Below are positions 9,558 to 57,693 of a stretch of DNA of 64,000 nucleotides, one piece after another. The stretch is taken from contig JAHLKF010000042.1 of assembly GCA_025558075.1 (NCBI GenBank), positions 17,653 to 81,652 of the forward strand. Direction: 5' to 3'. A program made the translations under genes and the position numbers. How positions within the stretch are numbered: the stretch's first letter is position 1; each line of letters starts with the position of its first letter. This stretch comes from Gaertneriomyces semiglobifer. Taxonomy: Eukaryota; Chytridiomycota; Chytridiomycetes; Spizellomycetales; Spizellomycetaceae. The notes under the pieces were generated by a model that saw nothing but the letters and a program-made list of their open reading frames with translations, had not been told where the DNA came from and did no database searches.

Positions 9558-9581
9558 ATGCAATCGGTGTCCAATAAAGAT

Positions 9582-22023: not shown

Positions 22024-23102
22024 ATATTGAAGAAAGGTTTTTTGTTTGTTGTTTTTTCAAAAGCTTAAGTAAAAGGGAAATCGAACCATCATGTCAGGTA
22101 CAGGTTTGAACAGCCGCAGCAGTAGCAGGCTGCGTATTCTCGATAACACCAACCTCGTGTCGGCGTATGTTACTGGGAAAGGTTTGATTGGTAAAGGGGA
22201 CAATGTGAATCTAGAAGGTTTCAAAGAGGCACGCATTAAAGAGATCTCTAATAAGAACGGTCCATTGGAAGTTAATAACATAGAAACCGTAGCACCTTTG
22301 TCTTCAACGACTGAAGATGGGACCGCAACCATTCAGCTGATGTACAATGAGGAGGATTTCGAGGTGTCCGATGAATACGGTATCTCTCTGAAGGAGAAAA
22401 GAGGGGCTCGTTTCCCGCTGTGGATTGAGAAGGAGGATAACGTGGCGTATATCGAGCTGAAGCACGTTCAGCCATTGGGAACAAGTGACCAGGGACTTAC
22501 TCTATTCACTGATGATTCTTTACAAATAGATGAAGAAGGAAAATTGACCGTTGTCTGTGAAGAGAAGGAAACCTATGAAGTTCCTATCGTCAAAGATGAT
22601 CATGTGGTTCGATTGCATATCGAGAAACCATTAGTGATCAATGAAGATGGGAAGCTCACGACAGATAGCAAAAGCATTATGAAGGGAGCAGGAGCAGTCC
22701 GGGTCTATAGTAGTGATACTCTTGGTGAAATTGTCCCTACCATGCCTGATTGGTTGGATATTGATCTTCCTGGTGACTTAGAAGACTATTTGCAGAATGG
22801 TATGCTGGTGAAACTCCAAGTCAGTGACGACTTTCAACAAACGTCCGGTCGCTTGGCGTTGAGGTCGCACGGCTTATACCGAATTCCCTTCTATAGTGGT
22901 CTATCGGGTTTCGACTCTGATGCAAATTTCACATACAACAACACCCTCAACATATTGTCTGCTCCAACGATACATAGCAATGTTGACTACAACATTACCG
23001 AACCTACCCAAGTACCTACCGCAGCGTACATACACCAATTGATGCAAAGCGAGGCTGGTTCAGCAGTGGATATCGGTGCCGTTGCAAATGGACGGAAATT
23101 GA
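21829..23102 (+). repeat. 1.27-kb segmental duplicate of EVE-1 (3502-4765)
   Basis: Colinear with 3502-4765 at a constant offset of 18,327, with one mismatch noticed (A to G at the base corresponding to about 3849, Glu to Gly). At its right end this copy keeps ten bases (23093-23102) deleted from EVE-1, so it preserves the older state. It includes the penton 3' end, the intergenic region with TTAAGTA (22065-22071) and the fibre N terminus. Confidence 0.92.
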
Positions 23103-23640: not shown

Positions 23641-23944
23641 ATCTATTATACCGCCGGCGGACTCGTGGACTTCCGGCTCTTAACAAAGGAGATCAATAGG
23701 AGCGGAGTAATCCTCTTGGAAACCCTACCGTCCGATCATAATCCTTCTACACTTGCGGCGCGGCTTCGCTGAAATTAGCGCTATGAACCATTCAAAGTAA
23801 TAGCGGCTTTGCGGCGCCAAGCGCTATCTCGGGAGTTGAAGGAGGTCATTCAAATCCTTGTTTCCTTCTGTCTTCAAAGGGTCATGTGACCTGTTCAGTT
23901 ACTGTCAGTTTGGTCACGTGCCTTGCTGAATGAAAATCACAAAA
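23641..23944. other. intergenic region left of EVE-2
   Basis: Contains TAGCGCTA/GGCGCC palindromic segments (about 23755-23830) related in style to hairpins inside EVE-2, and a GGTCATGTGACC palindrome near 23880. No gene seen. It may hold the left boundary of EVE-2; no terminal inverted repeat was found by eye. Confidence 0.4.
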
Positions 23945-24409
23945 TCAGACAACCATGATAGTTGACTGAACTCTGCAATCTTCAAATGTCCATCGGGTGT
24001 ACACTTTTGTGTAAAGCGAAATTCCTCGCCAACAACAATCCATTATAACATCACATATATGTGGAGAAGTTATCTCTGTACCACGTTGTGGTGTATTAAA
24101 AAGGAATATTTCGAAATCCTCATTATGACCGAGCCGGTAGTATCGTTCAATCGTATTCGCATATGCTTCACCGTCGCCCTCAATAGTTATCCACTGATGG
24201 ACATGTTGATTGTTTGTCGCGCGTAGAAGAGACACATGCACTCCGTCATGAGAAGCCTCTGTTAACAATGTGGGGAACCTAAGTTGCCATTCAACATTGT
24301 CGCGCATTTCTTTAAAGTGCTTCCTTCTTAAGAATGGCGTCAAAAGATAGGCACCATCAATATGACCCAAGATCTGTTCCTGTACTTCTCGTGGTAATTG
24401 TGAAGCCAT
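23945..24409 (-). CDS. EVE-2 F-box-like small protein
   Basis: 154 residues. The N terminus has LPREVQEQILGHI, matching the first helix pattern of F-box domains, followed by a basic segment and an aromatic-rich C-terminal half. Possible distant relative of the EVE-1 protein at 9582-10055. It lies 32 bp downstream of the ATPase gene on the same strand, so the two may be co-transcribed. A role in host ubiquitin-ligase recruitment is only a possibility. Confidence 0.5.
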   Translation of the reverse strand: MASQLPREVQEQILGHIDGAYLLTPFLRRKHFKEMRDNVEWQLRFPTLLTEASHDGVHVSLLRATNNQHVHQWITIEGDGEAYANTIERYYRLGHNEDFEIFLFNTPQRGTEITSPHICDVIMDCCWRGISLYTKVYTRWTFEDCRVQSTIMVV

Positions 24410-24441
24410 TACCTTTTCTTTGTACTACGCATTTTTTCTCT

Positions 24442-25146
24442 TCAGGCAATCTTGAACACATCCTCATTATTATGGGCACGTAGATCCACGTACAGAAACT
24501 TGCATGGTTGCGATGTCGCCTCTTCAGCCATGGAGACAAACTCTTTCTCCGTGAGATGACACCGTAACTCTGGTGCAATCTTCTCATAATGTTTGCTGTT
24601 AAGTCTATACAATATGTAGTGTGTTGCATTTACTCGTTGTAAAGGTGTGCACTGCAAGGTATCATGAAATGAGCACATTAGCGAGATACCGAAATGCCGC
24701 CCCCGTGAATACAACAGATCCAACATCTCCTTGATACAACTCGAGATCTCCTCAATTGAACTCTTTTTCACGTCTTTACCACTTTGCTTGGCTAGGAGGC
24801 CGTTCACGATCAAGAGATGATTGGTTTTCTTGTCCGCGATATAAAGACCTTTTTGTCTCTCGAATAGATCGTAGAGGACTTTGTTGGAAATGGTTGGACT
24901 GATGTAGATGTTGTCCTTGCGTTTGAGGGATGTCCAGATAGGATCAGATATGCTTGGGGTGAAAATGGCCACTCCACTGTATGAAGAGGCTAACTTTTCA
25001 ATGAGATTCACTTGACATGTTGTCTTGCCGCTTCTAGACGAACCGATAATCGACATGACAAAGAATTTCTTTGGATATCCATCTGGAGTATTATCCTTGA
25101 TCTTGATGTCGTGCTCCTTGGGTATTTTGACTTTCTTGATCTCCAT
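24442..25146 (-). CDS. EVE-2 packaging ATPase (A32/FtsK-HerA type), Walker B deleted
   Basis: 234 residues, homologous throughout to the EVE-1 ATPase at 2165-2899. Walker A is canonical, GSSRSGKTT (about residues 34-42). Where EVE-1 has ICIDDFGILA (Walker B with the catalytic acidic pair), this copy reads IVNGLLA: a nine-base in-frame loss has removed the Asp-Asp. Downstream motifs (FHDTLQCTPLQRVN, YRLN) are retained. Without Walker B acids ATP hydrolysis should fail, so the gene is probably dead despite its open frame. Confidence 0.85.
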   Translation of the reverse strand: MEIKKVKIPKEHDIKIKDNTPDGYPKKFFVMSIIGSSRSGKTTCQVNLIEKLASSYSGVAIFTPSISDPIWTSLKRKDNIYISPTISNKVLYDLFERQKGLYIADKKTNHLLIVNGLLAKQSGKDVKKSSIEEISSCIKEMLDLLYSRGRHFGISLMCSFHDTLQCTPLQRVNATHYILYRLNSKHYEKIAPELRCHLTEKEFVSMAEEATSQPCKFLYVDLRAHNNEDVFKIA

Positions 25147-25182
25147 GAAATATTTTCCTTTAACATGTAAAGCATAGGAAAA
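25147..25182. promoter_or_regulatory. 36-bp divergent promoter, ATPase/penton
   Basis: Start codons of ATPase and penton are 36 bp apart. The spacer is AT-rich with inverted TTTTCC/GGAAAA and CTTTA/TAAAG arms, mirroring the compact two-way promoter of EVE-1. Confidence 0.45.
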
Positions 25183-25932
25183 ATGTTAAGAGAGTACATC
25201 CTTAATACGGCGGTTCTAGGCACGGATAATGCCGTTTTCCAGATCTTGCCACCACAAATGATGTATAGATTTCGTATCGTAAGTGTGTTGTTCCTTCAAA
25301 ACTGGGATAGTACAAATGACACGAACAATCAGATTGCATTTGCGGAACAAGGTGATGTAGCGCCGAGGATTGCAAAGATCGTTCCTGGCTCCTACACTGT
25401 TGTCTCCATCACGGACGCGATTAAGACGGCAATGGAGAAGGTAGGAACGCAATCGTATGCCGCCTCGTATGATGATGTGTCCAAACGGTTGAGGATCTAC
25501 ACAACCGGCACCAAAGACTTTAAGATACTCGAGTCGACCAGAGGAACAACGTTATACCTTCAGATAGGCTCTAGTAAAGAAGCAGAGACTGGTTACGGCA
25601 AGTCATTCACTATGCCACTCCCGATCAATTTCAGCGCTAGCCAACCGTTGTTGTTGACGAGCAGAACACTCTACGCTGGAGGAAGGCTGCAGTACATTGC
25701 TGGCATCAACTCGGGGATCAACGTTCTTGCCTGTATAACACCTGACAATTTTTCTGATGTCGTGACATGGACAAACCCAAGTGACCAGTTCTTCGAGACC
25801 GGCGAGCAAAGTTTGTCATCCATTGATCTACAATTGCTCGACAGCGCAACTTTGAATCGAATCGCCACAAACGCACCAATTGTTGTTGTACTTGATGCTC
25901 TGGATGATCCGGCGGATATTCTAAACTTGTAA
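25183..25932 (+). CDS. EVE-2 penton-like minor capsid protein
   Basis: 249 residues, homologous to 2950-3696: shared N-terminal LNTAVL, YDDVSKRLRI, a RGTT-Y block, PLLLTSRTL, LACI-PDN, NPSDQFFE and SLSSIDLQLLDS motifs. Beta-rich, without signal or membrane segments. Together with the adjacent MCP this fits the penton role in Polinton-type capsids. The frame is intact. Confidence 0.65.
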   Translation: MLREYILNTAVLGTDNAVFQILPPQMMYRFRIVSVLFLQNWDSTNDTNNQIAFAEQGDVAPRIAKIVPGSYTVVSITDAIKTAMEKVGTQSYAASYDDVSKRLRIYTTGTKDFKILESTRGTTLYLQIGSSKEAETGYGKSFTMPLPINFSASQPLLLTSRTLYAGGRLQYIAGINSGINVLACITPDNFSDVVTWTNPSDQFFETGEQSLSSIDLQLLDSATLNRIATNAPIVVVLDALDDPADILNL

Positions 25933-25997
25933 TGCGACGTAGAGACAATTTTTTCAAGCTTCACAAATTTTCCACTCGACAGCCACCTTGCGGCGCC

Positions 25998-26059
25998 TAG
26001 CGCGCTTTGCTCGCTACGCGAGCGGTTTGGCAAAGCCGAACTTAGCGCTACATAATGTA
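25998..26059. repeat. nested GC-rich hairpins between convergent penton and MCP genes
   Basis: Three nested stems: TAGCGC (25998-26003) with GCGCTA (26045-26050); GCTTTGC (26004-26010) with GCAAAGC (26030-26036); GCTCGC (26009-26014) with GCGAGC (26018-26023). CTACATAATGTAG at 26048-26060 is a further palindrome. Placed exactly between two converging genes, so a two-way terminator is plausible. Confidence 0.6.
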
Positions 26060-26065
26060 GAGGAA

Positions 26066-27307
26066 CTACACAATATCCACGGTCACGCCGAACAGGAGTG
26101 TCCTGTGTGTAAATACACTGGTAATCAAGGCAGTATTAGTTGGCAGTGGAGCAGAGAACTCACAGACGAATCTAAGGTTTCCATCTGTACCGATGAGGTT
26201 CAGTGCAGATGCTACATCTTCGTCACTCGATTGGAATGAGTATCTCAAGGTGAACTTCTTTGTCATGTAATTGTCAAGGTCTACATCTTCGGCTGCATAA
26301 GAGGCGTTGTTGTTGACAGACAAAGCACCAGAGATCATTGCATCCTCGATCTTAAAGTCTTCAGTAAGCGGAAGTCTCCAACCTCCCAACTGATACCTCC
26401 ATGATTTGAGGTTTGCAGTGTCGTAAATGAGAGATTTGTCTCCAGGGTTTGCCTGATACTTACTGTCGTCTCTAAAGCGATGAGTTAAGCCGACCACGCG
26501 AGAATTGGCTAGAGGAATGATAAACTGGTTAATAGTTGCACCGTTTCCATTGCTGAACGTCTGTGTTGTAGCGACGTAGTCGTACTCAAGGTAATGACCC
26601 TTGCGTATACTTTCCCAAGCAGACGCGAGGAAATCAGCATGGGGCGTGACAAGTTGTGCTACATACCGAAGATCGGAGATGGTGAAGTATGTTCCTGCTC
26701 CAGCATTGGTTGCGGCCATATGGGGAGAGTTCAATGGAAATGACAACTCGAGCGACTCACTGGGAAGTCAACAGAGAGGCATCGGATTCCCGTTTGTTGG
26801 CTGCATGACACCAAATTCTAAGTGATGCCTGAATGTGAACGAACCATTGGAATGGAAGATGTCATCCCTTCCTACTCCTTCTAGATGAGAAAGATACTTC
26901 CGTCTTGCGGCAGATTCAAAAGCATATTGCTGGGAAACATGCTCGGCGTAATTCTCGACCGACTCGGCGATCTTCCCTGAGACTCTCACCGTAGCACGTA
27001 GAAAGTGCATCATGGCACCGGCATCAGCATTATTTACTGTTGAGTTGACGGTATTGTCTGTATTATACCAAGTTATTTTTCCGGACAGGTAGGATCTCTG
27101 AGGTCTGAGAAATGACGAGGGCGAGTCGACAACAATCTTGATAACATCGCCCGTAGTCTTGGAGGAAAAGGTTTCCTTCATGGGTCGGTAGACGACAATG
27201 TTTTCATTCATTGCATCGGAATGAGTGCTAAACTGCTTCGATGCATAGATCCAATTGCTTGGAACGGTGGGATGGGCACTTCCACTTACTTGATGGGCAA
27301 TACTCAT
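26066..27307 (-). pseudogene. EVE-2 major capsid protein (double-jelly-roll type), one nonsense codon
   Basis: Read from ATG 27307, a 414-codon frame is broken only by TGA at 26768-26770; the downstream part to 26066 is in the same frame without indels. The predicted product is beta-rich: an N-terminal region with YRPM and LRPQRSYL-GKI blocks, a central helix-containing segment around AFESAARRKYL, and a C-terminal half. Length, gene position beside the penton and composition fit the hexon-like MCP of Polinton-like viruses or adintoviruses; no search was possible. A TATA-like GTATAAAA lies just upstream (27310-27317), preceded by CTTAAG (27325-27330). The stop could be a recent lesion. Confidence 0.6.
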
Positions 27308-27360
27308 TTTTATACTTTCAAGTTCTTAAGCTTCTACATAGAAAAAAGATTTCATTGTCC

Positions 27361-27885
27361 CTACCGGGAATGTCGTCTTCCGAAAATGATACTATACGGG
27401 TTATCGTCGTCGAATACGGCAAAGACATGTCCAGGTCTTGGCTCCTCTTCTTCAATCCGTCCTACAAGTTTGCTAGGCTGTGGTACTTCAACTTGAACGG
27501 CTGGGGTCACAGATTTCTTCGGCTTCTTAGGCTCCTTCTTCTCTTTATCCTTATTGGATTCCTTTGCAAGTTTCTTTGCCTCACGTTCTTTTTTTAAGTA
27601 ATCTTTGTGTTTTTGAAGTAATTCCTTGGCTTCTTGAATCCGTTTTTGCTCATCTTGTTCTTTTTGTGTCTTAGCAAGATCTCTTAAGCGCTGACCACGA
27701 GCAGCCTGTGCTTTCTGTAGAGCAGCCTTCTGTTTTTCTGTCATAGGACGTTTCTTCTTTTCTTCTTTAGGGGCACCGATTGAACTCGACGCGTCTGGCG
27801 CACTAGTGGGCGCTTCTGCAGAAACCTCTTGTACTGGAGCAGTTACTGTATCATCCTCTGGCTTGTTTTCAATCACTTCAGTCAT
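27361..27885 (-). CDS. EVE-2 charged coiled-coil protein
   Basis: 174 residues, not recognised. The acidic Ala/Pro/Thr-rich N terminus (1-40) is followed by a long Lys/Glu/Gln-rich helix with coiled-coil character (about 42-125; EKQKAALQKAQAARGQRL) and a short C-terminal acidic-aromatic segment ending GRRHSR. It lies between MCP and two further minus-strand genes with short spacers, so it belongs to the structural cluster. A scaffold or core role is conceivable but not shown. Confidence 0.6.
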   Translation of the reverse strand: MTEVIENKPEDDTVTAPVQEVSAEAPTSAPDASSSIGAPKEEKKKRPMTEKQKAALQKAQAARGQRLRDLAKTQKEQDEQKRIQEAKELLQKHKDYLKKEREAKKLAKESNKDKEKKEPKKPKKSVTPAVQVEVPQPSKLVGRIEEEEPRPGHVFAVFDDDNPYSIIFGRRHSR

Positions 27886-27921
27886 CTTTTAGCTTTATTG
27901 AAAATAAAAAAATCTCATAGC

Positions 27922-28104
27922 CTACCGTCTAATTCGCAATGTACGAAGCAACTCTTCTAATGATCCATTTATTCGAGGAGCAAATGGCTTAACCTTTTGT
28001 GCTTTTCTGGTAGGATGAGCAATAACTCTTTTCCATGGACCATTTCTTATTTCTGTAGCCGTCAAGCCAACTTTGTTCGCTTTCTTTCTCCTTGCCATCT
28101 TCAT
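27922..28104 (-). CDS. EVE-2 small basic protein
   Basis: 60 residues, very basic (begins MKMARRKKANKVG, ends RTLRIRR), no recognised domain. Size and charge recall DNA-condensing core peptides of adenovirus-like particles; that is analogy only. Tightly packed between two genes on the same strand (16 bp and 36 bp spacers), which supports it being real. Confidence 0.5.
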   Translation of the reverse strand: MKMARRKKANKVGLTATEIRNGPWKRVIAHPTRKAQKVKPFAPRINGSLEELLRTLRIRR

Positions 28105-28119
28105 ATCCTTTAAGTACGA

Positions 28120-29739
28120 TTATTTTTTCTTACCTTTAGAATCCCCAGGTGAGTACCTGTCCGGTGCCTTTTTTGCCCTTGTTGAACGTCTAGGTTGAAC
28201 TGGAGATGCTGGCGGTGCTACTGATGACCCTGCAACTGAAAGGTCATATCTGTCAGGTGCCTTACCTTTGTTAGCCCGATTTGACCGCCGTAGAGGAACT
28301 GAAGTGGTCGGCGCAGGGCTATGTGTAATTGGTGCTGCGACGGTTACTGTAGGTACACTCGGGCTGTACCTTTCAGGTGGTCTGGTTGAACGGGTAGAAC
28401 ATCTTACTTCACGCTCCGCTACAATAGGCGTTGTGATGACACCATTGCCTACCATTGCAGGGACAACTGGTGTACCACCGGATGTCTCAACTGACGCCGA
28501 TTGAACTGGCTGAGTTAGAGATATCGGGGTGCTTGTATAGGGGCGTGTCCTTGTTCTTTCTAACTCGGTCGAGGCTCTACGCTTTCTTTCATTAGTAGCC
28601 GGTGCAATTGGCGTTCGCTCGTTGAACATGCTTTGCGTAGTTGTCACCGTCCCACTTGAACGAGATGAAGCAACAGATGTCATGGGTGCTATATAAGAAG
28701 GTGGTGGAGTGGCCGTATGACTGTAGCCAGGCAACGTGCTTGAAGGAACCTGTGAGGGGCTTCCTAATGCGGTTGTAATGATCGGTGCAGGTCTGTTATG
28801 TCTCCAATCTACAGTCGTTTCTGTAGGGGCTTGTGGGAGATATGCAGTCGGGCTCGGGTACATACCTGAGCGTTGTCTAGGCGGGGGTGAAACTTGCATT
28901 GGTTCAGGTGGTGTACTCGGGACATGAGGCCTCGGTGCCGTGACAAAGCGATTTTCCGCTGGAGAGGTCGAGCGTTCCACTGAGGATCGGGGGTTCGTAT
29001 CCCTGCCGGGATTGGTCGCTCCGCGCCCGGCATGAGTGGTAAAGTCTCGAACAATAGTGTCTCGTCTCATTTCAACAGGAGGCTCGGTTTGTGTAGAGAA
29101 GTTGATGCGCTGCATTTCGCCAACCACTCCATGGGATTCGCCTACCTGAGTACCAACGCTTGTTAGGTTCAAACTGGGTGTCTGGGTATTAATAGTGAGT
29201 CCACGACGCGGATTTGCCTGAGATGTAGTAGGCAGATGAGTGTCGTCTGCACGGTGGGCAACCCGTTGTGTAGTGTCTCCGATCAATTGATTTTGCTGTT
29301 GCCTGATGTAGCCGGGCTGATGAAAAACTGTATAGGATCCATCATCATTCTCTCGGTAAGAGATTGATTTGGGCATGGCGACCTCACGACCTCTTCTAAG
29401 AAAGAGGTTGTCTGCATCAAGTTCATCAAAGTAGGCTTGATTTGCCTTTTCCTTTTCAATCGCCAGGAAGCCTTCTACAGCCTCCTTTGCAACTTTGGTT
29501 TGTCGTTCCTGCTCTTTAACCTTTGGATTAGCATTGTAGGTGAGATCGAATGTAATGGGACGAAGTTTGTTATGAGGAGGAATGTAAAACGGGGTTCGAA
29601 ACTCTCTGTTTACGGCGAATCCAGGTAGGTCTCTAATGAATCCGTATTGTCGCGCTTGGATGTTAGGTACACCAGCCCTTCGGTCTCCGAAGGCAGAGAC
29701 TGTTGGCAGACTGAGGTTCTCATCATATATTGCTGCCAT
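28120..29739 (-). CDS. EVE-2 539-residue protein with low-complexity body and C-terminal PDRY repeats
   Basis: Residues 1-150 form an ordered, mixed-composition domain of unknown family (starts MAAIYDENLSLPTVSAFG; includes a charged helix around AKEAVEGFLAIEKEKA). Residues 150-410 are Pro/Thr/Ser-rich and probably disordered. The C terminus has three repeats of the pattern RRS-x-R-x-x-K-x-PDRY-S (about residues 445, 490, 520), ending in a Lys tail. Similar RRSTR--PP-RY strings occur as linkers in copia polyproteins. First gene of a minus-strand run reading toward MCP; divergent from the gene at 29793. The initiating ATG codons are at 29739. Confidence 0.65.
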   Translation of the reverse strand: MAAIYDENLSLPTVSAFGDRRAGVPNIQARQYGFIRDLPGFAVNREFRTPFYIPPHNKLRPITFDLTYNANPKVKEQERQTKVAKEAVEGFLAIEKEKANQAYFDELDADNLFLRRGREVAMPKSISYRENDDGSYTVFHQPGYIRQQQNQLIGDTTQRVAHRADDTHLPTTSQANPRRGLTINTQTPSLNLTSVGTQVGESHGVVGEMQRINFSTQTEPPVEMRRDTIVRDFTTHAGRGATNPGRDTNPRSSVERSTSPAENRFVTAPRPHVPSTPPEPMQVSPPPRQRSGMYPSPTAYLPQAPTETTVDWRHNRPAPIITTALGSPSQVPSSTLPGYSHTATPPPSYIAPMTSVASSRSSGTVTTTQSMFNERTPIAPATNERKRRASTELERTRTRPYTSTPISLTQPVQSASVETSGGTPVVPAMVGNGVITTPIVAEREVRCSTRSTRPPERYSPSVPTVTVAAPITHSPAPTTSVPLRRSNRANKGKAPDRYDLSVAGSSVAPPASPVQPRRSTRAKKAPDRYSPGDSKGKKK

Positions 29740-29792
29740 GATGATGATGATGATTAAATATTCTTGCTTTAGATCAAGATATTATTATTGCA

Positions 29793-30101
29793 ATGGCAGG
29801 ATTCTTTGGAAAGGCGAAAGCGCGTGTCAGCAATTTCTTTCAAAAGATGCCCTCGAACATCACAAAGGTCAGGAGTATGTTTAATACTGCTCGAGGTGTT
29901 GCTGGAAAGGCGAATCGCTTCATACAGTATACGAATGAAGGAGTCCAGCAGAATGATCTATTTGGTAGAAAGATCAAGGATGTAGGGAAGAAAGCAGCAG
30001 ACCTTTCAGGCCTAGGCTTGAAGAAGATAGATGATGTGCATAAAGGCGGAGATCACTTTTTAGAACATATGGCTCGATACGGTGCTGACGCCGGCAATTA
30101 A
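29793..30101 (+). CDS. EVE-2 small amphipathic basic protein
   Basis: 102 residues. The N-terminal 45 residues form an amphipathic basic helix (MAGFFGKAKARVSNFFQKM...), followed by Gly/Lys-rich segments. No Cys, no membrane span. Such proteins in adenovirus- and Polinton-like particles (pVI/pX-like) disrupt membranes or bind DNA inside the capsid; the assignment is by resemblance of size and composition only. It is 31 bp upstream of the integrase on the same strand. Confidence 0.5.
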   Translation: MAGFFGKAKARVSNFFQKMPSNITKVRSMFNTARGVAGKANRFIQYTNEGVQQNDLFGRKIKDVGKKAADLSGLGLKKIDDVHKGGDHFLEHMARYGADAGN

Positions 30102-30132
30102 AAAAGTCGGTAGTATCTAATAGAGGTGTAGA

Positions 30133-31380
30133 ATGGAGTCAATGGACACCAAAGAACGTGCACCTAAAGAATACTTCACACCACTCACTGACAAAGACGA
30201 GTCGCGTTTGAAAAGCCTCTACTATAATGACAAGGCATTTGTTGGCCGCGATAGATTGTACCATTTGTTCAAAACTCGTTATCCACAAAGTGATGCCAGC
30301 CGAAGGGCTGTGATGCATTTTTTAACTTGTCAGGAAGTCTGGCAGAAAATGAGCCGTCCAATAACGAGTCGAGGTGGAATTCGTCCTATTTTGAGTTCAC
30401 GGCCGGGTTCCTTACAACTCGATAGTATTAACATGAGTGCTGTGTCATTCGGCGGCTATCGATACATTACGAACTGCATTGATATCCTGACAAAAAGAGT
30501 ATATTCAAAAGCACTTCGAAGCCTCACTGCAAGTAATGTACGGGACTTCTTAGGGGAGATAAGGCAGAGTGGTGCTCCGATCACAAGCGTGCAAGCAGAC
30601 CGTGGCAGTGAAAACCTCGGTGAGGTTCTTGAATGGAGTCGGATTCATAATATTCCAGTGCGCTATAGTAAACCAAATAGACCAGAAACAAACGGCCAGG
30701 TGGAGAGAGTCAATGGCACTATTAAACGCATGCTCTACGGAAGCATGAAGACAGGAGACCGTGATTGGCCAGCAGCACTTCCGAAAATCATCGATGTGAT
30801 CAATTCTTCCGTGTCATTTGGGGCAAGTAAAAAACTCCTTACCCCATCAGAAATAGAACAGAACGTGGAGACAGCGTTCCAGGCACAAAAAGCCCACAAG
30901 ATGAAAGGTCGAGGTTCAAAACTGTTACCAAGATTCAAGGTCGGTGACTCTGTTCGTCTTTTGTACAAGGAAAACACAGATATTCGTAGGAGAGCCCGGG
31001 GCTACTTTGGTGATCAAGTGTACACAATCGAGGAAATAGTACCTAGTACCCACCCCAGGTACATGGATAGTTACAGGTTAGTAGGAGAAGAAGGTCTTTT
31101 CACGGCCTATCGCCTGCGACAGGTTCCTGAGGGGACAATGAGTGGAACCACTGCTACTAATGAAGCGGAGACAGAAAGCGAAGATGATCTTTCAGAAGAT
31201 GAGTTCGTTGTTGAGTCTATTTTGGATAAACGTGTACGGCGACTTCGTCGTGGTCAACCGTCAGTCACAGAATATCTCGTCTTATGGCGTGGGTTTCCTA
31301 GATCTGAAGCGACATGGGAACCTGTCTCTAATCTTGAGAGCGCACGTGAGGCGATCTACAACTATGAAAACACACATTAA
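30133..31380 (+). CDS. EVE-2 retroviral-type integrase with chromodomain
   Basis: 415 residues, intact. An N-terminal helical region (1-95) precedes the DDE core: Asp in LQLDSINMSAV, Asp in VQADRGSENL and Glu in NGQVERVNG, with 34 residues between the last two. The core is followed by a basic linker, an acidic stretch (EAETESEDDLSEDE) and a C-terminal chromodomain (VVESILDKRVRR ... YLVLWRGF ... ATWEPVSNL). This is the layout of Polinton/Maverick integrases, which insert viral DNA into the genome; the chromodomain likely steers insertion to methylated-histone chromatin. Of the hallmark virus genes it is the one that shows no lesion. Confidence 0.93.
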   Translation: MESMDTKERAPKEYFTPLTDKDESRLKSLYYNDKAFVGRDRLYHLFKTRYPQSDASRRAVMHFLTCQEVWQKMSRPITSRGGIRPILSSRPGSLQLDSINMSAVSFGGYRYITNCIDILTKRVYSKALRSLTASNVRDFLGEIRQSGAPITSVQADRGSENLGEVLEWSRIHNIPVRYSKPNRPETNGQVERVNGTIKRMLYGSMKTGDRDWPAALPKIIDVINSSVSFGASKKLLTPSEIEQNVETAFQAQKAHKMKGRGSKLLPRFKVGDSVRLLYKENTDIRRRARGYFGDQVYTIEEIVPSTHPRYMDSYRLVGEEGLFTAYRLRQVPEGTMSGTTATNEAETESEDDLSEDEFVVESILDKRVRRLRRGQPSVTEYLVLWRGFPRSEATWEPVSNLESAREAIYNYENTH

Positions 31381-31419
31381 TTTGGCCGCATTTAAACGTA
31401 CAGTTTTGTACAGCTAATA

Positions 31420-31426
31420 TTAAGTA
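31420..31426 (+). promoter_or_regulatory. TTAAGTA motif
   Basis: TTAAGTA 5 nt before the ATG at 31432; one of the four recurrent pre-start motifs in the virus-like elements. Confidence 0.35.
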
Positions 31427-31431
31427 GTACC

Positions 31432-31674
31432 ATGACTGATACGGATCTTGTAGAAACCTCGCCAGGCCATTTTTATGTTCCTCCAACTAGAATCAAGTTG
31501 TGCAAAGGTAGAAAGACAGCAGACGGCATTCGTTCTCCTTGCCCGGATGGAGCGTACATAACTGTTCGTCGGGGATACCATAGGTGCTTGAATTGCTACT
31601 TGAAAAATCAGCACCCAGTCGAACAAGAGAAGTTCGACATCCTTAAGGACGATGTTGACAGTGACAGCGACTAG
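31432..31674 (+). CDS. EVE-2 small Cys protein, possible zinc ribbon
   Basis: 80 residues. Cysteines at KLCKGRK, SPCPDG and HRCLNC are spaced like a small zinc-binding ribbon (C-x12-C, then C-x2-C). The C terminus is acidic (DDVDSDSD). Unknown family. It follows the integrase by about 50 bp, with a TTAAGTA motif ahead of the start codon. Confidence 0.55.
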   Translation: MTDTDLVETSPGHFYVPPTRIKLCKGRKTADGIRSPCPDGAYITVRRGYHRCLNCYLKNQHPVEQEKFDILKDDVDSDSD

Positions 31675-31720
31675 TTTTGCAAACGCACTTCTTGAATTAT
31701 CAAGGTTATTTTTCCAAATC

Positions 31721-31727
31721 TTAAGTA
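31721..31727 (+). promoter_or_regulatory. TTAAGTA motif
   Basis: TTAAGTA 13 nt before the ATG at 31741. Confidence 0.35.
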
Positions 31728-31740
31728 AGAAACCTCCTTC

Positions 31741-32019
31741 ATGTATTTTACAGACATTATTGTAGTGTTGCTGATTGCGATCGTTACTGTTGGATTCGGT
31801 GCTGTCCAACTCATCGAGTGGTCAAGTGCTAGAGAACAAAGTTTGTATCGCAGAGCACATTACTGTGCTACTCGCGATATGCTATATGATGTTGAACATG
31901 TGATTAATGACACACTTGAAGATCTAGTTGATGATGTGAGGTATGAACTTAACAAGAAGAGAGATGATGTAGAGACAGATGCAGAGGACGCAGAGAATGA
32001 ATGGAATGAAACTAAATAG
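31741..32019 (+). CDS. EVE-2 small single-span membrane protein
   Basis: 92 residues. Residues 5-24 (IIVVLLIAIVTVGFG core) form one transmembrane helix; the remainder is a strongly acidic helix with coiled-coil character. Unknown family. Small membrane proteins of this type occur in many DNA viruses; the exact role cannot be given. Confidence 0.55.
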   Translation: MYFTDIIVVLLIAIVTVGFGAVQLIEWSSAREQSLYRRAHYCATRDMLYDVEHVINDTLEDLVDDVRYELNKKRDDVETDAEDAENEWNETK

Positions 32020-32021
32020 AT

Positions 32022-32072
32022 GTAGCGAACAAGCCGAACTTCCTTGAGTGAGACCCACAACTTGTTCGCTAC
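32022..32072. repeat. GTAGCGAACAAG hairpin
   Basis: GTAGCGAACAAG (32022-32033) and CTTGTTCGCTAC (32061-32072) are perfect 12-bp inverted repeats around 27 nt. A second small stem (GTTCGG/CCGAAC) follows. It lies between the membrane-protein stop and the fibre promoter. Confidence 0.7.
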
Positions 32073-32137
32073 ACGAACCGTTCGGCAGAACCGAACAATC
32101 GAGCGCAAAATGCTGTTATATAAAATTCTCTCCATAC

Positions 32138-32144
32138 CTAAGTA
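32138..32144 (+). promoter_or_regulatory. CTAAGTA motif with upstream TATA at fibre start
   Basis: CTAAGTA is 10 nt before the fibre ATG (32155); TTATATAAAATT lies at about 32117. One-base variant of the TTAAGTA motif. Confidence 0.35.
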
Positions 32145-32154
32145 AACGCATGTC

Positions 32155-35100
32155 ATGTCAGGCCTGAACTCTAGAACATTCAACGGTCTACGGGTTCTTG
32201 ATAATACAAAGTTGCTCTCGCCACTCGTGAGTGGTGAGTTGAAAGGCAGTGGAGAGGCTAACATTGAAGGATTCGATTCAGCCACTTTTAACCATGTCTC
32301 TAATCAACATGGTGAACTATTAGTTAATAGTATTAGCGCGCAGGCGCCCCTTGAAAACAGGCTCGAAGACGGCGAAGCAAATGTTTCACTCTTGATCGAC
32401 GAGGAGACGATGGAACTGAAGAATGGTGCGCTTGCCTCCAAACAGCGTCATCTCTTGGCAGAATACCCCTTGAGCATCCAAGAGGGAAGTCAACAGGGGG
32501 AGGACGTGGTCGAACTAAAAATTGATTCTCCACCACTTGCGGTAAATGAGCACGGCCTAACTCTTCTCTTGGATGAATCATCTTTACACATAGACAGAGA
32601 AGGTAATTTATCAGTCATTCATGATTCGTTTGAAGAGCCTCTTGCTAAAGACACTGACAATGTCGTTAGACTTAACATTGACTCTCCTCTTGTTGTCAAG
32701 GATGGCAAATTGGGAATTGATCAGAAGGAGATGTCGAAAGGCATCGGCGCCATATCGGTCTACAGTGCTGTTGATGAAATCTTGCCTGGCGTCGGTGATT
32801 GGATCGACATTCCGGATCTGCCTGGAGACATGGAGACATATATCGGGAATGGAACCTTAGTTAAGTTGAACGTTAGTGATGACTTCCAGCAGTCGGGTTC
32901 AAGACTGGCGATAAGAAGTAAAGGTATGCATGAGATACCTTATTATGGAGGACTCAGCGGCTTCAATAGTTCCAATCGGTTTACTTATAACGAAACACTG
33001 CAGACTTTAACGGTACCGACATTCCATGCTGAAGCGGTCGACTACAATATCACCGAGCTGCGGCAGTTACCCACTGCTGGGTATGTACACCAGTTATATC
33101 AATCCCAAGCCGGTTCAGCGATAGATATTTCCGAAGTCACGAGTGGGAGGAAACTGATCAAGGTGAATCACGATGAGACGCTCTCCATTAATGAGTCGAA
33201 CCAACTCGAAGTCAATGTTACCACCATCGCGGACGGCACTTCGGTGAAGGCTATGAATGGCATGTTGAGTGTGGATCCATATGTGGCAGGAGACGGTATT
33301 ACAATCACCGACAATGTGGTGTCCTCTACTTTGACATATGGAGGCTCTCTTAGACGAGAAGGCGACCAAGTCATTGGCAAGAATGTTGTTTCAGCAAGTA
33401 GCAACGTCACTGTTGTTCAGACGAATCCTTTCAGTTATGAAGTGTCCGTGTTGAATCCACAGAGTCAAATTGACAATCTGGATGACAAAGTGACGGATCT
33501 TAACGAAAAGACTGACCAGAACAAACTGGAAACTGATAATGAGATCAACGCTTTGAAGAATGAGGATATACGACTCGATAACAAAATCGATGTAGTGGAA
33601 TCTCGAGTCCAGCAGCAAGAATTGAAGAGCGACCTTCTCTCGAGCGATATCACCACAAACAAAGGGAGCATCAACAATTTGGACATTGCTAAGAATCAGA
33701 TCCAAAGCAACCTGATTTGGCTCGGCGCTGAAGTAACTGGGTTACCTGGTGTTGTTGATACGGTGAATACGGTCGCCACTGGTGTGCAAGTGGCGCAGGC
33801 TTTGATGAAGGGCGATGTTACAAGTCTCCAAGGTATTGTCACTGGAATAGCAGGAGAGGTGACGGGATTATCGTCAACAGTCGCGGCTATCCAAGCAATG
33901 CCGGTGGTGAGAGGAGTTATTGGTATCAGTGTAATCGCGGCTCAAGATCCCGTTACTGGAATTGTGACAATTACCAACACCAATGCTCCATTGATGGCGG
34001 AAAAACCAACTGCTCCTGTGAACCCAACCGACAAGGGAGGTGGCGGCGGTACTTTAAAAGACACATATAAAAATGAGGACGGTGGAGGCGGTGGGGGCAG
34101 CGGGGGCGGCGGCGGCGGCGGCGGCGGCGGTTTGAACGGCGGTGGAAGTGTTGGAGAATCCTCATCAGGATTGGCTGAAGCACCCAACAATCCTATTTTA
34201 CCACCTATCGATCCTGTAGATCTTCAAAATACGGGTCGGATTGGAGGCACAGATGGGAATGACTTGCTTCCATGTCTGAATGGACTGCCTCCAATTTTCA
34301 AAGGACGTGATGATATGGGAGAAAACACTTGGTTTGTTGATTCATGGGGGCGAAGATGGAGTGAGGAACTGCAATTGGAAGTTATTGAAGATGGAATAGA
34401 AAGATCCGTGATTGAATTGGATGAACGTGGTGTTCCTATTACTGAAAAAGGACATGTCGATATCATCTTGCGTGGTTCAGATGATGCTCGTATCTCAACA
34501 GCGATACTGACTCACGACAGACACCTTCAGAGCGGATACATTCAACAAGGGGGAATTCTCTTTGAACATCCCACCACCGTCCCCAACATTGCCATGGTCT
34601 ATCAGGCTTATGAGCAATACATTCTTCCCTACGTGGAGTCGTGTAATTTCATCAATGTTGGACAAGGACTTGTCAAGACTGGTAATACACTATCCCTGAG
34701 CGATGATCTCTCAACGTTTGCCAAGACGAGCAGCATCAAAGCCTTAGGATTCAAAGATACCTTGGCCTATTCAGAGTTAACAGGACGCCCTACACTTGGG
34801 TCATTGGCAGCAAAGAGCAGCATTGCCTGGACAGAAGTGACCTCTAGACCGACTCTTGGATCCTTATCGAGCAAGAATACACTGGATTGGAATGGAACAG
34901 ACATCATTAACAAACCCACGGATTTGACCACCAAGGCTTATGTTGATTCTTTATCGTATCTCACGATCGGAGCAGGGTTGGTCAAAACGGGAAACACAAT
35001 ATCTCTGGGGTCAGATCTCGGTGCCTTTGAAGTCAAAACCAACTTAAAGGCTTTAGCATACAAGGATGCTGTAAGTTGGAATGACATTCTATCAAAACCA

Positions 35101-38040
35101 ACCTTGGGCACCCTTGCTTCAAAATCGAGTGTGTCTTGGATTAATGAAGTCTCAGGAAAACCGGATCTGACCATATATGAAACCAAAACAGCACTTAAAG
35201 GATTGGCTTACAAGGACAAGGTCGATTTTGCCAGTGATCTACTGAATGCTCCAGTACTTGTAACTTATGGAAGCGGTCTGCTCTTCAGTGAAAACACGGT
35301 ATCATTGAACCCAGCAGTCAGTGTAGATTCTTTGGCGACTGTAGGAGGAATTTCATTTGGAGGAAACATGTCCGGAACAGGGAATATTTCGATAGGAGGC
35401 ACGTTTACAGCAACGAAGAACGCCAACACTGCTTTCGCCCATGTGTTGAACAACCAATCCGCGGCATCAAATTCATGTACATCTTTGCACTTGCATGCTG
35501 GTGGTACGCAGGGCTTATACCTGCATATTAACAGCGCTGGTCGAGGAGTGTATGGTGGGATTAATACTGGAACGATTCAGTGTTATGCAAGCGAATTGAG
35601 GTTGCTAACCAAGACCGAAACTGGCGGTATTGTGATTGATGATACAGGTAGCGTAGACATTTCTCAACGTCTCTCTGTTGGAACCAACAGTGATATTGTT
35701 GCATTTCCTCCTGTCAATTTGACAAGCAATGCGACTACAGTTTCCGCCTGACCATATGGGAATGGTACCTATGTTGGAACGAGTAGTAGTAAATTCAACA
35801 ACTCCACCTAATATGATGCATGGCATGCTTTTACGCATAATAGTGCATTGTATCCTTGGTATCCACTGACAGGAACTTATAGGGCTACTGCCCCCTTTGA
35901 CTATGTGGGATCAATATCGACAACAATTAATAGCGTCGAAGTTCTAGGGGAATATATTCAATTACAATTTCCTTTACCGATCTTACTAGAATCCTTCGAC
36001 ATTGCAGTACTGAGTGTTGGAAGTGATTTTTACATCAACGAATTTGTTCTAGTGGGATTGAATGATGGTTCCACTTTTACTCAGTTGATGACTTCTACAT
36101 TCTCTTGGGGGGCGGCTGGAGCGCAAACATTGAACGTGCCGGTTCCAAATGTGTCAAAGGGTTTCAAGACATATTGCCTTATTATAAAGTCGCTGTTAGG
36201 AAACCGGACGTATTGTCAAGTAGCAAGATTGATATTCAATGGGGTGCCTGTTTCGGTGGACATTAGGGGTGCCATTTCTGCAAAACAGGTGATTGCTGAT
36301 GAACTTGTATGTTCCGGTGATGTGAAGATGGATGGCCTCGGTTTGCAAGATGACATCCCTACAACCTCTGTTTATCCTGACATTGCCATGACTGCCGCTA
36401 CAACAGGACAATACACTGCTACTTCATCAAGTGTGTATTCGGGAACTTGGACGGGCTGGAAGGTTTACAATCCTTACGCTCCGGACAATAACAATACTTG
36501 GTTTTCTGCTGCAAGTGTTTGTTCAAGCACAGCACCGTACTCGTATATTGGGAGTGTTTCCACAACAGTGGATGGAACAGCCGTTCTAGGGGAGTATCTA
36601 CAATTGGACATGCAAACTGCTATTGCTCTGACGTCCTTCTATATCGCAAAACCAACATCAGGCGATTCCTATAATGTCAAAGACTTTATCATTGCAGGGA
36701 GTAGTGACGGTTTTTCATGGAAACAAGTAGTCTCTGGAACACTCGACTGGAGCACCGCACCAAGCAATGGTTCCGTTCGTGAATTGAATGTCCCAGTAAC
36801 TACTCGAGTCAGTCATAAGTCATACAGATTTATTACTAGATCCATTCAAAGCGAATCAAGTGGAAAGTATGTCCAGATATATGCCTTGAAATATACGGGT
36901 GGTATTCCAAAGAAGGTTTTGAATGTTGAAAATCTGAAAGTTAACAAAATTTTTGGTGATCTCTCAATTGACAACAGTGTCGAATTCAAAGATGACATTG
37001 TTGACTCTATCAGATATCCGAAGATACAATTGACGGGTGCAACTACCGCAGGATATATTGCGAATGCCAGCAGTAACTTGAATGCAACTTCCGCAGGCTG
37101 GAAAGCATTCACTAGTTCCTTGGAGATCAATGACTCTTATTGGTCTGCATCAACATATTCAGGAGGCGAGCAGAACATGTATCAGGGCACTGTTCAAACT
37201 TCTGTAGATGGTGCAAACATCAAAGGAGAGTATGTGGAACTGGAGATGGAAGTTCCAATCGCTCTTACGGCATTTTCATTTGCTGGCAGGACACCAGAGA
37301 TGCCAATGTTCCCAAAGGACTACACTATTTGCGCTTCCGATGACCGCAGCAATTGGATAGAGATCTCCTCTGGAACAATGACATATACAATCTATTAAAA
37401 CTCAAATTCAGTAGATAGGTTTGCACCCATCAAAAACTACACTACGAAGACATTCAAAATATTTAGATTCATTGTCCGTAACCTTATTTCTTCAACATAT
37501 GCCCATATTGGGAAACTGACGTTCTACGGATCCAATACCGCACAGAAGATCATAGAAGCGCCTGCGGCTAACGTGAATGGTCTGAGTTTGTCCGCCCCAG
37601 CGTTTGGAATGTTTCAACTCCATTCCAGTCAATCGTTCTCTGTGAATGGTACTGCCTACCAGTTAATAACCAAATGGACTCCATCGTTTGGTATGGAGAG
37701 TGAGACCATTTACTGTACACCGAATAGTCAAGATATCGTCATTAAGCAACCCGGTATTTACAAAGTAGAATTCGATCTAGATTGTTTCCAAACCGGTTCC
37801 GGATCTGTCAATAGTTACTTTGGATTCATGGTGCCTGGTAGCACCATGTATTACGAAGATAGTTACCATGTAGGGAAGCATAGTCTTGTAGCGGGATCAA
37901 AAATATCAGGTTCATTGATATGTCGTGTCATAGAAGCAAATACCAAGATGATCCTTCGCTTCATATCCGCAAGTGCCTCGGGCGGCCTAACGGGATCGCA
38001 AGCATCTCGGTTAATTATCTACCGTATTGCGCCATTGTAA
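32155..38040 (+). pseudogene. EVE-2 giant fibre protein with three in-frame stops
   Basis: 1,962 codons in a single frame with stops at 35749 (TGA), 35809 (TAA) and 37396 (TAA) and no frameshift. N-terminal region (32155-33400) homologous to the EVE-1 fibre; coiled coil (33460-33700); poly-Gly (34080-34150); shaft repeats with GLVKTGNT-SL cores (34668-35000); three discoidin (F5/8 C)-like domains (about 35840-36250, 36400-36900, 37090-37540), one more than in EVE-1; and a C1q-like tip (37600-38037) unlike the EVE-1 tip. As genomic sequence it would end before the discoidin domains. It is either a decayed fibre or, less likely, one needing stop-codon readthrough. Confidence 0.82.
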
Positions 38041-38304
38041 GAATTGTGTAGTGATTGGTTTTTTTTAAGCTCGAGCCTGTTATTTGTACATATGCTCAGA
38101 CGTGTTAGTTTCATGTTTTTATGTTTCTGAATAGGTACATCAACTAACTAAGGAAACCGTCAGCCCAAACCCAATCGCATTCAAAACATACTAACCAATG
38201 TCTTGTGTACGGTCGTCATCATCGGCCAGGAAAAGTAGGCGTCCTCATACCTACTTCCCCAACATAAGCTTGCAATTTAAACTTTGTGGAACGAACTCTG
38301 CGTC

Positions 38305-38571
38305 TCAGGTTTTCTTCTTCGTCGCTCTTGTTCGCTTCATCGGCGCCACCGGTTTCGAAACATACTCTTGGTATTGACCTTCAATACAATCCAATTCATA
38401 CATTCCCCTCAATATAGCAACATGTGCATCAGGTAACACATGTTTAGATTCAACGTCCTTGATGTAAGCGTCCGTCTTCTCTTTTGGCAACTCAGATGCA
38501 AATAACATACATCGCTCGAGTAACATTTCATCTCTCTCCGACCAAAACGTCTCGCCTTTCCATTTCATCAT
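38305..38571 (-). CDS. EVE-2 Lys-tailed small protein
   Basis: 88 residues, intact. Helical and charged, with a central KEKTDAYIKDVESKHVLP block, a QYQEYV motif and a basic tail (KRTRATKKKT). Homologous to the interrupted EVE-1 gene at 10068-10355. In both elements it is the last gene, facing the fibre and next to the terminal repeat cluster. Unknown function. Confidence 0.65.
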   Translation of the reverse strand: MMKWKGETFWSERDEMLLERCMLFASELPKEKTDAYIKDVESKHVLPDAHVAILRGMYELDCIEGQYQEYVSKPVAPMKRTRATKKKT

Positions 38572-38582
38572 TGGATTTACAT

Positions 38583-39000
38583 GTAGCGGAGCTTAGAAAA
38601 TCCCGGATGCAAGTGCGTTTGAACATGAGTATTCCAACCTAAGCTGGGAACACCAATTGAGTTGAGGCTAGCGCGGGCGGTTGTGGGCTAAGTGAAAATA
38701 CACAGATACACAGATACACAGTTGAGAAATTCCAGAAAAACCTAACTGTGTATCTACACAATTTCGTGAAAGATAGAAGCTAAAAGAGGATCTCGATAAC
38801 TGTCTAGTAAGGGTCTAGAATATACTAATGAGCTTCTCTACAATACACAGATACACAGATACACAGTTAAAATAGAAGTTCTTAATACTCAGTTTCCAAA
38901 AAAAGATGAGTTGACAGTCAACTCATGTTTTTTGTGTTTTTTCAGAATAAAGTAACTAAAAACCACCTGTGTAACTGTGTATCTGTGTAAACCTCTACCT
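38583..39000. repeat. EVE-2 terminal iteron-like cluster
   Basis: GTAGCGGAGCTTAG ... CTAAGCT (38583-38645) resembles the internal hairpins. Then ACACAGAT repeats: three direct units at 38698-38722, an inverse unit at 38743-38759, three direct at 38843-38870 and inverse units at 38969-38990, i.e. arms facing each other across AT-rich DNA. A perfect 21-nt palindrome (38906-38926, ATGAGTTGAC-A-GTCAACTCAT) lies in the middle. Analogous in place and design, not in sequence, to 10422-10718. Confidence 0.65.
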
Positions 39001-39236
39001 ACCCTTACGGTAGTGTTTGGAAAGTGTTACCCACAACCTTCAAAGTTCAAGTTCAAGGTCCTGATGGAAACCCATACACGATTCAACACGGACATAGTAT
39101 ATGTGTGTGACTCACTCTTATAATTAGTACATAAGGTTTTGGTTTGACTACCCCTTAAATTTTTTGCGGCCTTGCAAAGCTCTTTATGCCATCAAAGTTG
39201 CCCTGTTTCCTGTTCTCTACGACACATCTCTCAAGC

Positions 39237-39668
39237 ATGGCTCAGCACACTACCATTCACGCTGTTCCCTCCTCTCCTCCTCCTCCTCCACCTTACGTCG
39301 CCACCCCAGAAGGCTTCAGGTTGAAGACCGACTGTTCTGTCTGTCTCGAAGCCATTTTCCCCAACACTCTTTGGGTGTACACCAATTGTTACCACTATTA
39401 CCACCCTGGTTGCTTTGCCACGCTCTCTGATATGATATGTAGAAGCCCATTTTGTTCAAATGTTCTAAGCCGCCCTATCAAAACGGTCTGTTGCTGCCTT
39501 TGCAACAATTTGGCTGCTGGTCTCTTGAAACTTCCGAAATGCTCCCATCTCTACTGCAATGATTGTTTCCTTCAAAACATTAGTGAGAACTACATGTCCT
39601 GTGTTCAATGCAAGCTCGACGGTGGACTCAATATTCTCAGCACACATATCCATCTTGATATTGCCTAG
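39237..39668 (+). CDS. RING-type zinc finger protein
   Basis: About 143 residues from the ATG at 39237 (an in-frame ATG at 39186 would add 17). A Pro-rich N terminus is followed by two Cys-rich modules. The first (CSVCLEAIF ... CYHYYHPGC) is RING-H2-like but incomplete. The second, CCLC-N11-CSHLYCNDC-N10-CVQC, has the full C3HC4 RING-HC spacing. Probably an E3 ubiquitin ligase-type protein. It could be host or captured; it lies 600 bp beyond EVE-2 on the opposite strand to its last gene. No intron is needed. Confidence 0.6.
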   Translation: MAQHTTIHAVPSSPPPPPPYVATPEGFRLKTDCSVCLEAIFPNTLWVYTNCYHYYHPGCFATLSDMICRSPFCSNVLSRPIKTVCCCLCNNLAAGLLKLPKCSHLYCNDCFLQNISENYMSCVQCKLDGGLNILSTHIHLDIA

Positions 39669-40027
39669 TCATTATGTTTCTGTTTGACTTTTATATTTAA
39701 TACATATTCCAGTTCCTTGGCGCAAAAACCTTTTACACTTTCATTGGTGTCAGCCACTGTGTGGCGTCCGCATGCGTCACTCAGCTCACTTGATGTTACC
39801 CCGCACCCGACCCTCGGGTCACATACACAATGCTACGCCGTTTCTTTCACGAAACTTTCATACATTTCCTTTCCTTTCCTTTCTTTTCACAAAAACGCGC
39901 GTTCTCCGAAATCTATGAAATTTATCCAAAACCTATTGCAATTTATCGCATTTTACTCCACTTCCACACCCACTTTTTCGTGATCGATATCAAAAAAGGT
40001 GTTACAAACTCGGCTGCCCCCTTTTTT

Positions 40028-40084
40028 CGCGCCCTGGTTAGGGTATCCCTATGACGTGTATGTCGCCGGGACCCCCTTACAACA
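40028..40084 (-). repeat. truncated copia-B LTR fragment
   Basis: 57 bp matching, in reverse, the first 57 bp of the copia-B LTR (TGTTGTAAGG end at 40084; one or two differences). Confidence 0.85.
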
Positions 40085-40212: not shown

Positions 40213-40276
40213 GTAAGTGTTTTTGTGGTTTAAGATTGACATAAGTAAAAAATACTAATTTAGCCGTATTTTAACC

Positions 40277-57686: not shown

Positions 57687-57693
57687 CTCCCCC

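Follow-up and report, generated by a model that had tools for sequence, protein, structure and literature searches.

Gene content and truncation of element B

The window analysed here is a 64,000-nucleotide stretch of the chytrid fungus Gaertneriomyces semiglobifer (C42:17653-81652 of a 20.9-Mb assembly with 66 contigs, each labelled C with a number). It contains a block of viral genes, element B, which is a degenerate, cut-off and decaying copy of an endogenous polinton-like virus (PLV) with a Preplasmiviricota-type capsid module (Table 1). Between 23945 and 38040 the gene order is a 154-aa open reading frame (ORF), a packaging ATPase, a penton gene, a major capsid protein (MCP) frame, ORFs of 174, 539 and 102 aa, an integrase and a fibre gene. 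An original prediction, made from the letters of the DNA, had described this block as a near-complete Polinton- or PLV-like endogenous virus with a chromodomain integrase. Its genes were correctly placed and belong together, the same set recurring elsewhere in the assembly, and the viral assignment with such an integrase, which is one open frame, is supported. The description as near-complete does not hold: B is cut at 23823, the MCP frame contains a stop and the fibre frame three, and the ATPase is short of three residues.

Alignment with a relative in C6 (blastn) spans 23823-38634 with gaps. Beyond its left stop, approximately 7 kb of C6 follow, in which lie a gene for a 569-aa recombinase-like protein, a primase-helicase gene of 975 aa and an inverted repeat. 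On the right, the homology of the C6, C21 and C49 relatives ends beside their own repeats, at the 38640 side, and positions 40144-40410 are similar to the repeat of the C30/C35 family. The interval 38640-40403 is probably the right terminal inverted repeat (TIR) of B, a candidate whose left partner is absent, and the degraded tip at about 40403 marks the right limit of the element. Contig C65 carries 38186-40687 at 99.9% identity; it probably represents either the second allele of this part of the window or a duplicate introduced by assembly. Because B has lost its left end and an intact tip, its missing replication gene and its ends are inferred from its relatives.

The match of the ATPase to Pox_A32 agrees with the FtsK/A32-type packaging ATPase of PLVs. 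Compared with its 97% identical relative in C21 the B protein lacks three residues, a gap that by our own reading of the alignment appears to sit at Walker B. For the penton, a structure model built from two window sequences was weak (pLDDT 53.5). Foldseek comparison of this low-confidence model with the PDB gave Sputnik 3j26_N (2e-7) and the mavirus penton 6g41 (1.7e-6), and all five PDB matches at E <= 0.001 were Sputnik chain N, the mavirus penton or PBCV-1 capsid chains. At the same threshold there were 29 BFVD matches, the named ones including TvV-S1, mavirus, adomavirus and MELD virus proteins. With TM-scores of about 0.3, these matches suggest the single jelly-roll penton of PLVs. Of the candidates that the original prediction had named for profile searches, the A32-type ATPase is supported by its Pfam match and the penton by its Sputnik and mavirus structure matches; the MCP was not borne out in this way. 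Uninterrupted MCP relatives of 413-415 aa exist in the assembly. Modelling just the C-terminal half of the MCP of the window gave an unusable structure (pLDDT 29.6), and Capsid_N matches in distant relatives were under the cut-off (0.046 and 0.094). Synteny, size, conservation and these sub-threshold matches weakly suggest the candidate's identity.

The integrase matches Chromo above the Pfam cut-off and rve, the integrase type of Polintons/Mavericks, below it (23.3 versus 32.6 bits). As the original prediction noted, neither a PolB nor a protease was recognised among the scanned ORFs of the block, and no Ulp1/adenain-type protease was found among the ORFs scanned in B, in a second element (A) of the window or in the relatives, where part of the copies' ORFs was covered. 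The fibre had been regarded as too large to be typical, but in the available parts of PMC12220804 fibre-type proteins exceed 1000 aa in most PLVs and reach 3.9k aa.

Table 1. Viral and associated features of the window (window positions) and the bounded units of the family (contig positions). TSD, target-site duplication
Feature	Position	Strand	Remarks
Element B	23823-40403		Truncated endogenous PLV; left end lost, right tip degraded; limits by blastn against C6 and, on the right, by terminal-repeat similarity
Conserved viral ORF, 154 aa	23945-24409	-	98% to C6:83654-84115; no Pfam match
A32-type packaging ATPase	24442-25146	-	Pfam Pox_A32 3.6e-6, above cut-off
Penton (minor capsid) protein, 249 aa	25183-25932	+	Foldseek structure matches
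MCP candidate, 413-codon frame	26066-27307	-	In-frame stop at codon 180; pseudogene
Lysine-rich core-type protein, 174 aa	27361-27885	-	96.6% to C49 copy
Conserved viral protein, 539 aa	28120-29739	-	92-94% to C49, C21
Conserved small protein, 102 aa	29793-30101	+	94-95% to C21, C49, C6
DDE (rve) integrase with C-terminal chromodomain	30133-31380	+	Single open frame; Pfam Chromo 1.3e-13, rve 7.6e-5
Fibre gene frame, 1962 codons	32155-38040	+	Stops at codons 1199, 1219 and 1748 before the end; relatives in C6, C21, C49
Probable right TIR of B	38640-40403		Ends in truncated tip TGTCACAGTG; C6, C21, C49 homology stops here
RING-finger ORF	39186-39668	+	Inside probable right TIR; Pfam zf-C3HC4 1.5e-5
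Element A (part)	101-10055		Second PLV-like block, more diverged; extends past the left edge of the window (C42:1-17652)
A C5 DNA methyltransferase	101-2014	-	Pfam 4e-36
A ATPase	2165-2899	-	Appears to differ at Walker A by our own reading of the alignment
A penton	2950-3696	+
A fibre, two frames	3764-4774 and 4771-9090	+
A ORF, 157 aa	9582-10055	-
Copy of A 3502-4765	21829-23092	+	1264 bp, 99.9%; penton end and fibre start of A
Bounded unit	C6:68014-91484		No TSD; right tip without outer arm
Bounded unit	C6:678337-702586		TSD of 4 bp only; sole unit without a replication-gene match
Bounded unit	C21:208585-232812		Exact 5-bp TSD CCGTG
Bounded unit	C21:232949-255938		Exact 5-bp TSD AACGG (readable as 6 bp after a one-base shift of one end); 66-bp tips
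Bounded unit	C35:91630-115205		Mirror-image outer flanks, no TSD; no PolB match
Bounded unit	C38:38781-62205		Exact 5-bp TSD CTCGT; integrase match without chromodomain part
Bounded unit	C31:95887-120214		Mirror-image outer flanks, no TSD; no integrase or MCP match

Relatives of element B in the assembly

Searches of the assembly gave at least 35 integrase matches (21 at E <= 1e-38), at least 34 ATPase matches and at least 38 matches to the MCP candidate, fragments included. The MCP matches fall into identity classes of 92-100%, 57-61%, 50-51% and 25-32%, the B protein being 92-94% identical to its C6 and C21 relatives. Seven better-preserved members of the family, delimited by inverted tips and 23.0-24.3 kb long, are referred to as bounded units. 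Six of the seven have a DDE integrase match, which in five includes the chromodomain part, and six have an MCP match. Full TIRs measure 1952 bp in C6 (99.59% identity) and 942 bp in C21 (98.83%); for the other bounded units the comparison covered the 40 bases lying inside the tips, of which 38-40 were identical. TIRs on units of 14-40 kb, as in PLVs, are therefore found in the relatives, B itself being truncated.

Strong purifying selection acted on the capsid genes as they diverged. The ratio of non-synonymous to synonymous divergence (dN/dS) was 0.074 for the MCP and 0.081 for the penton between B and C49, and 0.084 for the ATPase between B and C21; distant capsid-gene pairs are saturated at synonymous sites. 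For the B-C49 pair the integrase dS is 0.07 versus 0.65 for the MCP, indicating that modules differ in age, and the copies show that replication genes, integrases and terminal repeats have been exchanged between closely related capsid modules. In units with 52-bp tips a second MCP paralogue (C30:163571-164677 and copies), of the 26-27% type and mostly disrupted, adjoins the main MCP.

Replication genes

A primase or helicase match was present in six of the seven bounded units. The 975-aa protein of C6 matches D5_N above the cut-off (4.1e-8), PPL4 (7.5e-5) and DUF5906 (2e-4) under their cut-offs, and a P4-type primase C-terminal model at 1.4e-20, also under the curated cut-off; we read it as a putative archaeo-eukaryotic primase (AEP) joined to a superfamily 3 (SF3) helicase. 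Other relatives carry a CyRepA1-like helicase (2.9e-18; 66 bits versus a curated cut-off of 200). In the C6 and C21 relatives of B, the AEP-SF3 protein or the CyRepA1-like helicase is encoded on the side beyond the break point of B. Many PLVs encode a primase-polymerase or helicase instead of PolB, and such genes are found in the relatives on the side lost from B. To account for the missing polymerase, the original prediction had suggested that the virus might rely on its host for replication or carry a replication gene that had escaped recognition. For the family this is not supported; the puzzle is explained by the truncation of B and the use of primase-helicase genes by the family.

The assembly nevertheless contains 14 PolB matches, and the lineage could replicate by protein-primed PolB in the manner of classical Polintons/Mavericks if some of these belonged to the same element. 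In C47, C30, C19, C39, C34, C59 and C2 a PolB gene (PF03175; open frame of up to 1215 aa) and the ATPase are a near-constant distance of about 13.5 kb apart. However, a tip palindrome (C30:158145 and equivalents) separates PolB from the capsid unit, which in these copies encodes its own 841-aa protein with Prim-Pol (3.6e-26) and DUF5906 (4e-11) matches. The bounded sister in C35, with an 807-aa protein (DUF5906 6.6e-19) in place of the 841-aa Prim-Pol, has no PolB match, and none of the 14 falls inside any of the seven bounded spans. The near-identity of all seven PolB-bearing copies in this region makes it probable that the placement of PolB goes back to one event. We conclude from the intervening palindrome and the separate Prim-Pol gene of the capsid unit that PolB is not a gene of this element but of a neighbouring one; replication by PolB is largely refuted and very improbable. 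The PolB blocks (C47:26300-39200 and those in C30, C19, C39, C34, C59 and C2), with an HNH gene in C30, are possibly remains of another element family.

Palindromic tips and target-site duplications

The units end in palindromes of 30-66 bp which share their outer arms and have centres that differ between families yet are self-complementary. A pattern defining the outer arms and leaving the centre free, TGTCACAGTSCA-N(4-34)-TGSACTGTGACA, occurred at 39 places, and its backwards-read control at none. Approximately 12 centre families were counted from these places, and the 66-bp tips of C21:232949-255938, which exceed the gap allowed by the pattern, form one further family. Of the 39 tips, 29 were extracted with their flanks and 28 scored (the C32 tip was extracted and left unscored). 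The arms contained no mismatches in 17 of 19 tips attached to repeat sequence versus two of nine called solo.

Exact 5-bp TSDs lie directly outside the tips in three of the seven bounded units, and the palindrome is therefore part of the integrating DNA. Exact 5-bp TSDs also flank three of the nine solo tips (C7:379753, C31:85672 and C33:112420), an outcome with a chance probability of approximately 8e-8 if equal base frequencies are assumed, and the C31:85672 tip is a perfect palindrome. Solo palindromes with their own duplications might be expected if the palindromes were independent short foldback elements sitting at the virus ends by chance, but a unit carries the identical tip at each of its ends, where it is in register with the inverted repeats and, in three units, has the TSD outside both, and the solo tips have the viral outer arm in common; this explanation is improbable.

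In the odd-length families the centre base, read outside-in over 12 tips, is T, A, T, T, T, A for the 49-bp family and A, A, T, T, T, T for the 57-bp family. Both states thus occur in each family, and C6:678337-702586 has a different state at either end. Read most simply, one arm of a tip would be copied from the other via a hairpin, with flipping of the centre. A fusion of ends head to head was considered as the origin of the palindromes and rejected, the TG starts being on the outer side of the palindrome.

No (TTAGGG)4 telomeric array was present in the viral loci examined. Contigs C19, C30 and C47 end at the identical base of a viral unit, their last 500 bases being without telomeric repeats, and this shared end is probably an assembly break in a repeat. 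In C35 and C31 the sequences outside the tips are reverse-complementary, as in an inverted flank duplication or an assembly fold-back. Such identical contig ends and mirrored flanks suggest assembly trouble at repeats and, together with the 99.9% repetition of the right part of the window in C65, could favour the view that the palindromes and copies are assembly artefacts, or that the block consists of several unrelated insertions. The gene set is, however, common to diverged copies with capsid-gene dS values of 0.29-0.65, and exact TSDs occur at unrelated sites, so that we regard this as the most remote of the explanations considered.

Recombinase-like protein

The recombinase-like protein found beyond the cut-off point of B has matches in four of the seven bounded units, and in four of the seven both integrase and recombinase matches occur in the same unit. 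Residues R257, K289, R356, H384 and Y393 are invariant in four such proteins (26-73% identity to the first), in an order and with a nine-residue H-Y spacing that we take to be those of tyrosine recombinases. No recombinase match was obtained in Pfam, PHROG or PDB, so the assignment as a probable tyrosine recombinase is by motif only. A 300-aa ORF beside the C30 integrase looked recombinase-like by eye, with a resemblance split over two frames, and was excluded from the counts.

These motifs raise the alternative that a tyrosine recombinase of the virus acts as a telomere resolvase and turns the tips into hairpin telomeres, as has been proposed for phaeoviruses (available parts of PMC13236599). 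A palindromic site is present at the tips, and resolution there is putative. Homology to telomere resolvases was not detected in Pfam, PHROG or PDB, the likeness being confined to the motif, and three of the seven bounded units possess tip palindromes but no recombinase match. The recombinase cannot be required in all families, since none was found in those with 52- and 57-bp tips. We consider resolvase-made telomeres unlikely, while giving them more weight than the other alternatives.

Element A and other features of the window

Element A has its integrase (C42:11337-12536), MCP and a D5-type gene (D5_N, 916 aa) to the left of the window, and retrotransposon sequence separates it from B. The 1264-bp copy of A at 21829-23092 has retrotransposon-like sequence on both sides and looks as though a retroelement had carried it there. 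An RVT_2-type retrotransposon polyprotein lies at 15742-19140, with an integrase and a chromodomain match just under the Pfam cut-off. At 57467-58149 there is an inverted repeat with 220-nt arms, 97% complementary and 243 nt apart, that resembles a foldback element. The flanking host genes, for an amino-acid permease and TRAPPC9/Trs120, are consistent with a fungal host.

Discussion

We consider it probable that B is a degenerate copy from a PLV family which carries primase-helicase genes, has palindromic ends copied by folding back and integrates by means of a DDE integrase. The palindromic ends would fold back and be copied, by hairpin-primed or hairpin-telomere replication; this copying would keep both arms complementary and flip the centres of odd-length palindromes. 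The linear product would then be inserted by the DDE integrase, and the same enzyme may also insert a tip that has been released on its own. In members that have it, the probable tyrosine recombinase might resolve replicated palindromes, a weaker element of the proposal.

Several observations weigh against this interpretation. B keeps neither its left end nor an intact tip, and its MCP candidate and close copies have no significant profile or structure match in Pfam, PDB or PHROG. Among the bounded units, C6:678337-702586 has no detected replication gene and a duplication of 4 bp only, C6:68014-91484 has no duplication and lacks the outer arm of its right tip, and C31:95887-120214 is the exception among the integrase and MCP matches. 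The outer flanks in C35 and C31 are mirror images of each other and not TSDs, and the searches for a recombinase in the 52- and 57-bp tip families found nothing. The solo tips in C7 and C33 have five and eight arm mismatches, that in C28 seems by eye to be joined to a remnant of a C6-type repeat, and a few of the centre-base flips could be point mutations.

The family shares with known PLVs, such as those of the Spizellomyces punctatus group (PMC7805220) and of cryptophytes (PMC12220804), a penton, an A32-type ATPase, inverted repeats and replication proteins of the AEP-SF3 or primase-superfamily 2 (SF2) type, as well as a very large fibre, many copies per host and no recognised protease, as far as the available parts of these sources go. 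TSDs in the same parts are 5-7 bp long (PMC7805220), or 5-6 bp for PLVs and typically 6 bp for rve integrases (PMC12220804). The palindromic tips set this family apart. Neither 'palindrom' nor 'hairpin' occurs in the available text of PMC12220804, PMC4642659 and PMC12721341, and palindromic PLV ends were not found in the literature covered, which was mostly non-subscription. A further difference is the co-occurrence of a DDE integrase and a probable tyrosine recombinase, a combination that PMC12220804, in its available parts, found only through retrotransposon-type integrases.

Polintons/Mavericks and adintoviruses similarly combine a DDE integrase, TIRs and TSDs with capsid and ATPase genes; they differ from the present family, which has no PolB match in the seven bounded units, no recognised protease and exact TSDs of 5 bp. 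Virophages (mavirus, Sputnik) are alike in the predicted penton fold and in the rve integrase strategy of mavirus, whereas the present family has its own large fibre and no recognised protease. Parvovirus and poxvirus genomes end in terminal palindromes or hairpins with flip/flop states, a likeness in architecture between unrelated gene sets, with insertion by a DDE integrase in the present case. The hairpin telomeres of phaeoviruses and N15 also pair a palindromic site with an enzyme of the tyrosine-recombinase type, the N15 site measuring 56 bp and having a resembling site in an Ectocarpus virus (available parts of PMC13236599). By contrast, the palindromes described here lie at the tips of an integrated unit with the TSD outside, and there is no detectable similarity to telomere resolvases.

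The suggestion in the original prediction of an undescribed lineage is plausible in that IMG/VR scans with the penton, integrase, ATPase, MCP and a distant MCP, each relying on a few short exact peptide patterns, found no relative. PLVs have already been reported from a chytrid, S. punctatus (PMC7805220, in the parts available). The family is probably a new lineage of PLVs with an unexpected terminal architecture.

A broader proposal, which we put forward tentatively and hold to be somewhat short of an even chance, is that of a fungal, capsid-forming lineage of the Preplasmiviricota type with linear genomes and hairpin palindrome ends that would be copied by folding back independently of the type of replicase, with the tip as a complete two-ended substrate of the DDE integrase and tip resolution by the recombinase in some members. 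If this is true, tips alone insert as mini-elements of approximately 45-57 bp with 5-bp duplications, and capsid modules that are closely related exchange replicases of several kinds, namely an AEP-SF3 protein, a Prim-Pol-SF3 protein, an SF2-type helicase and a further SF3 protein. Solo tips flanked by target duplications would represent very small virus fragments mobilized by an integrase.

Large DNA viruses of fungi are, to our knowledge, poorly known, and this assembly shows many insertions of the PLV type with capsid genes under strong purifying selection. We know of no settled mechanism of end replication for PLVs that lack a protein-primed polymerase, and palindromic tips with flip/flop centres offer a directly testable answer.

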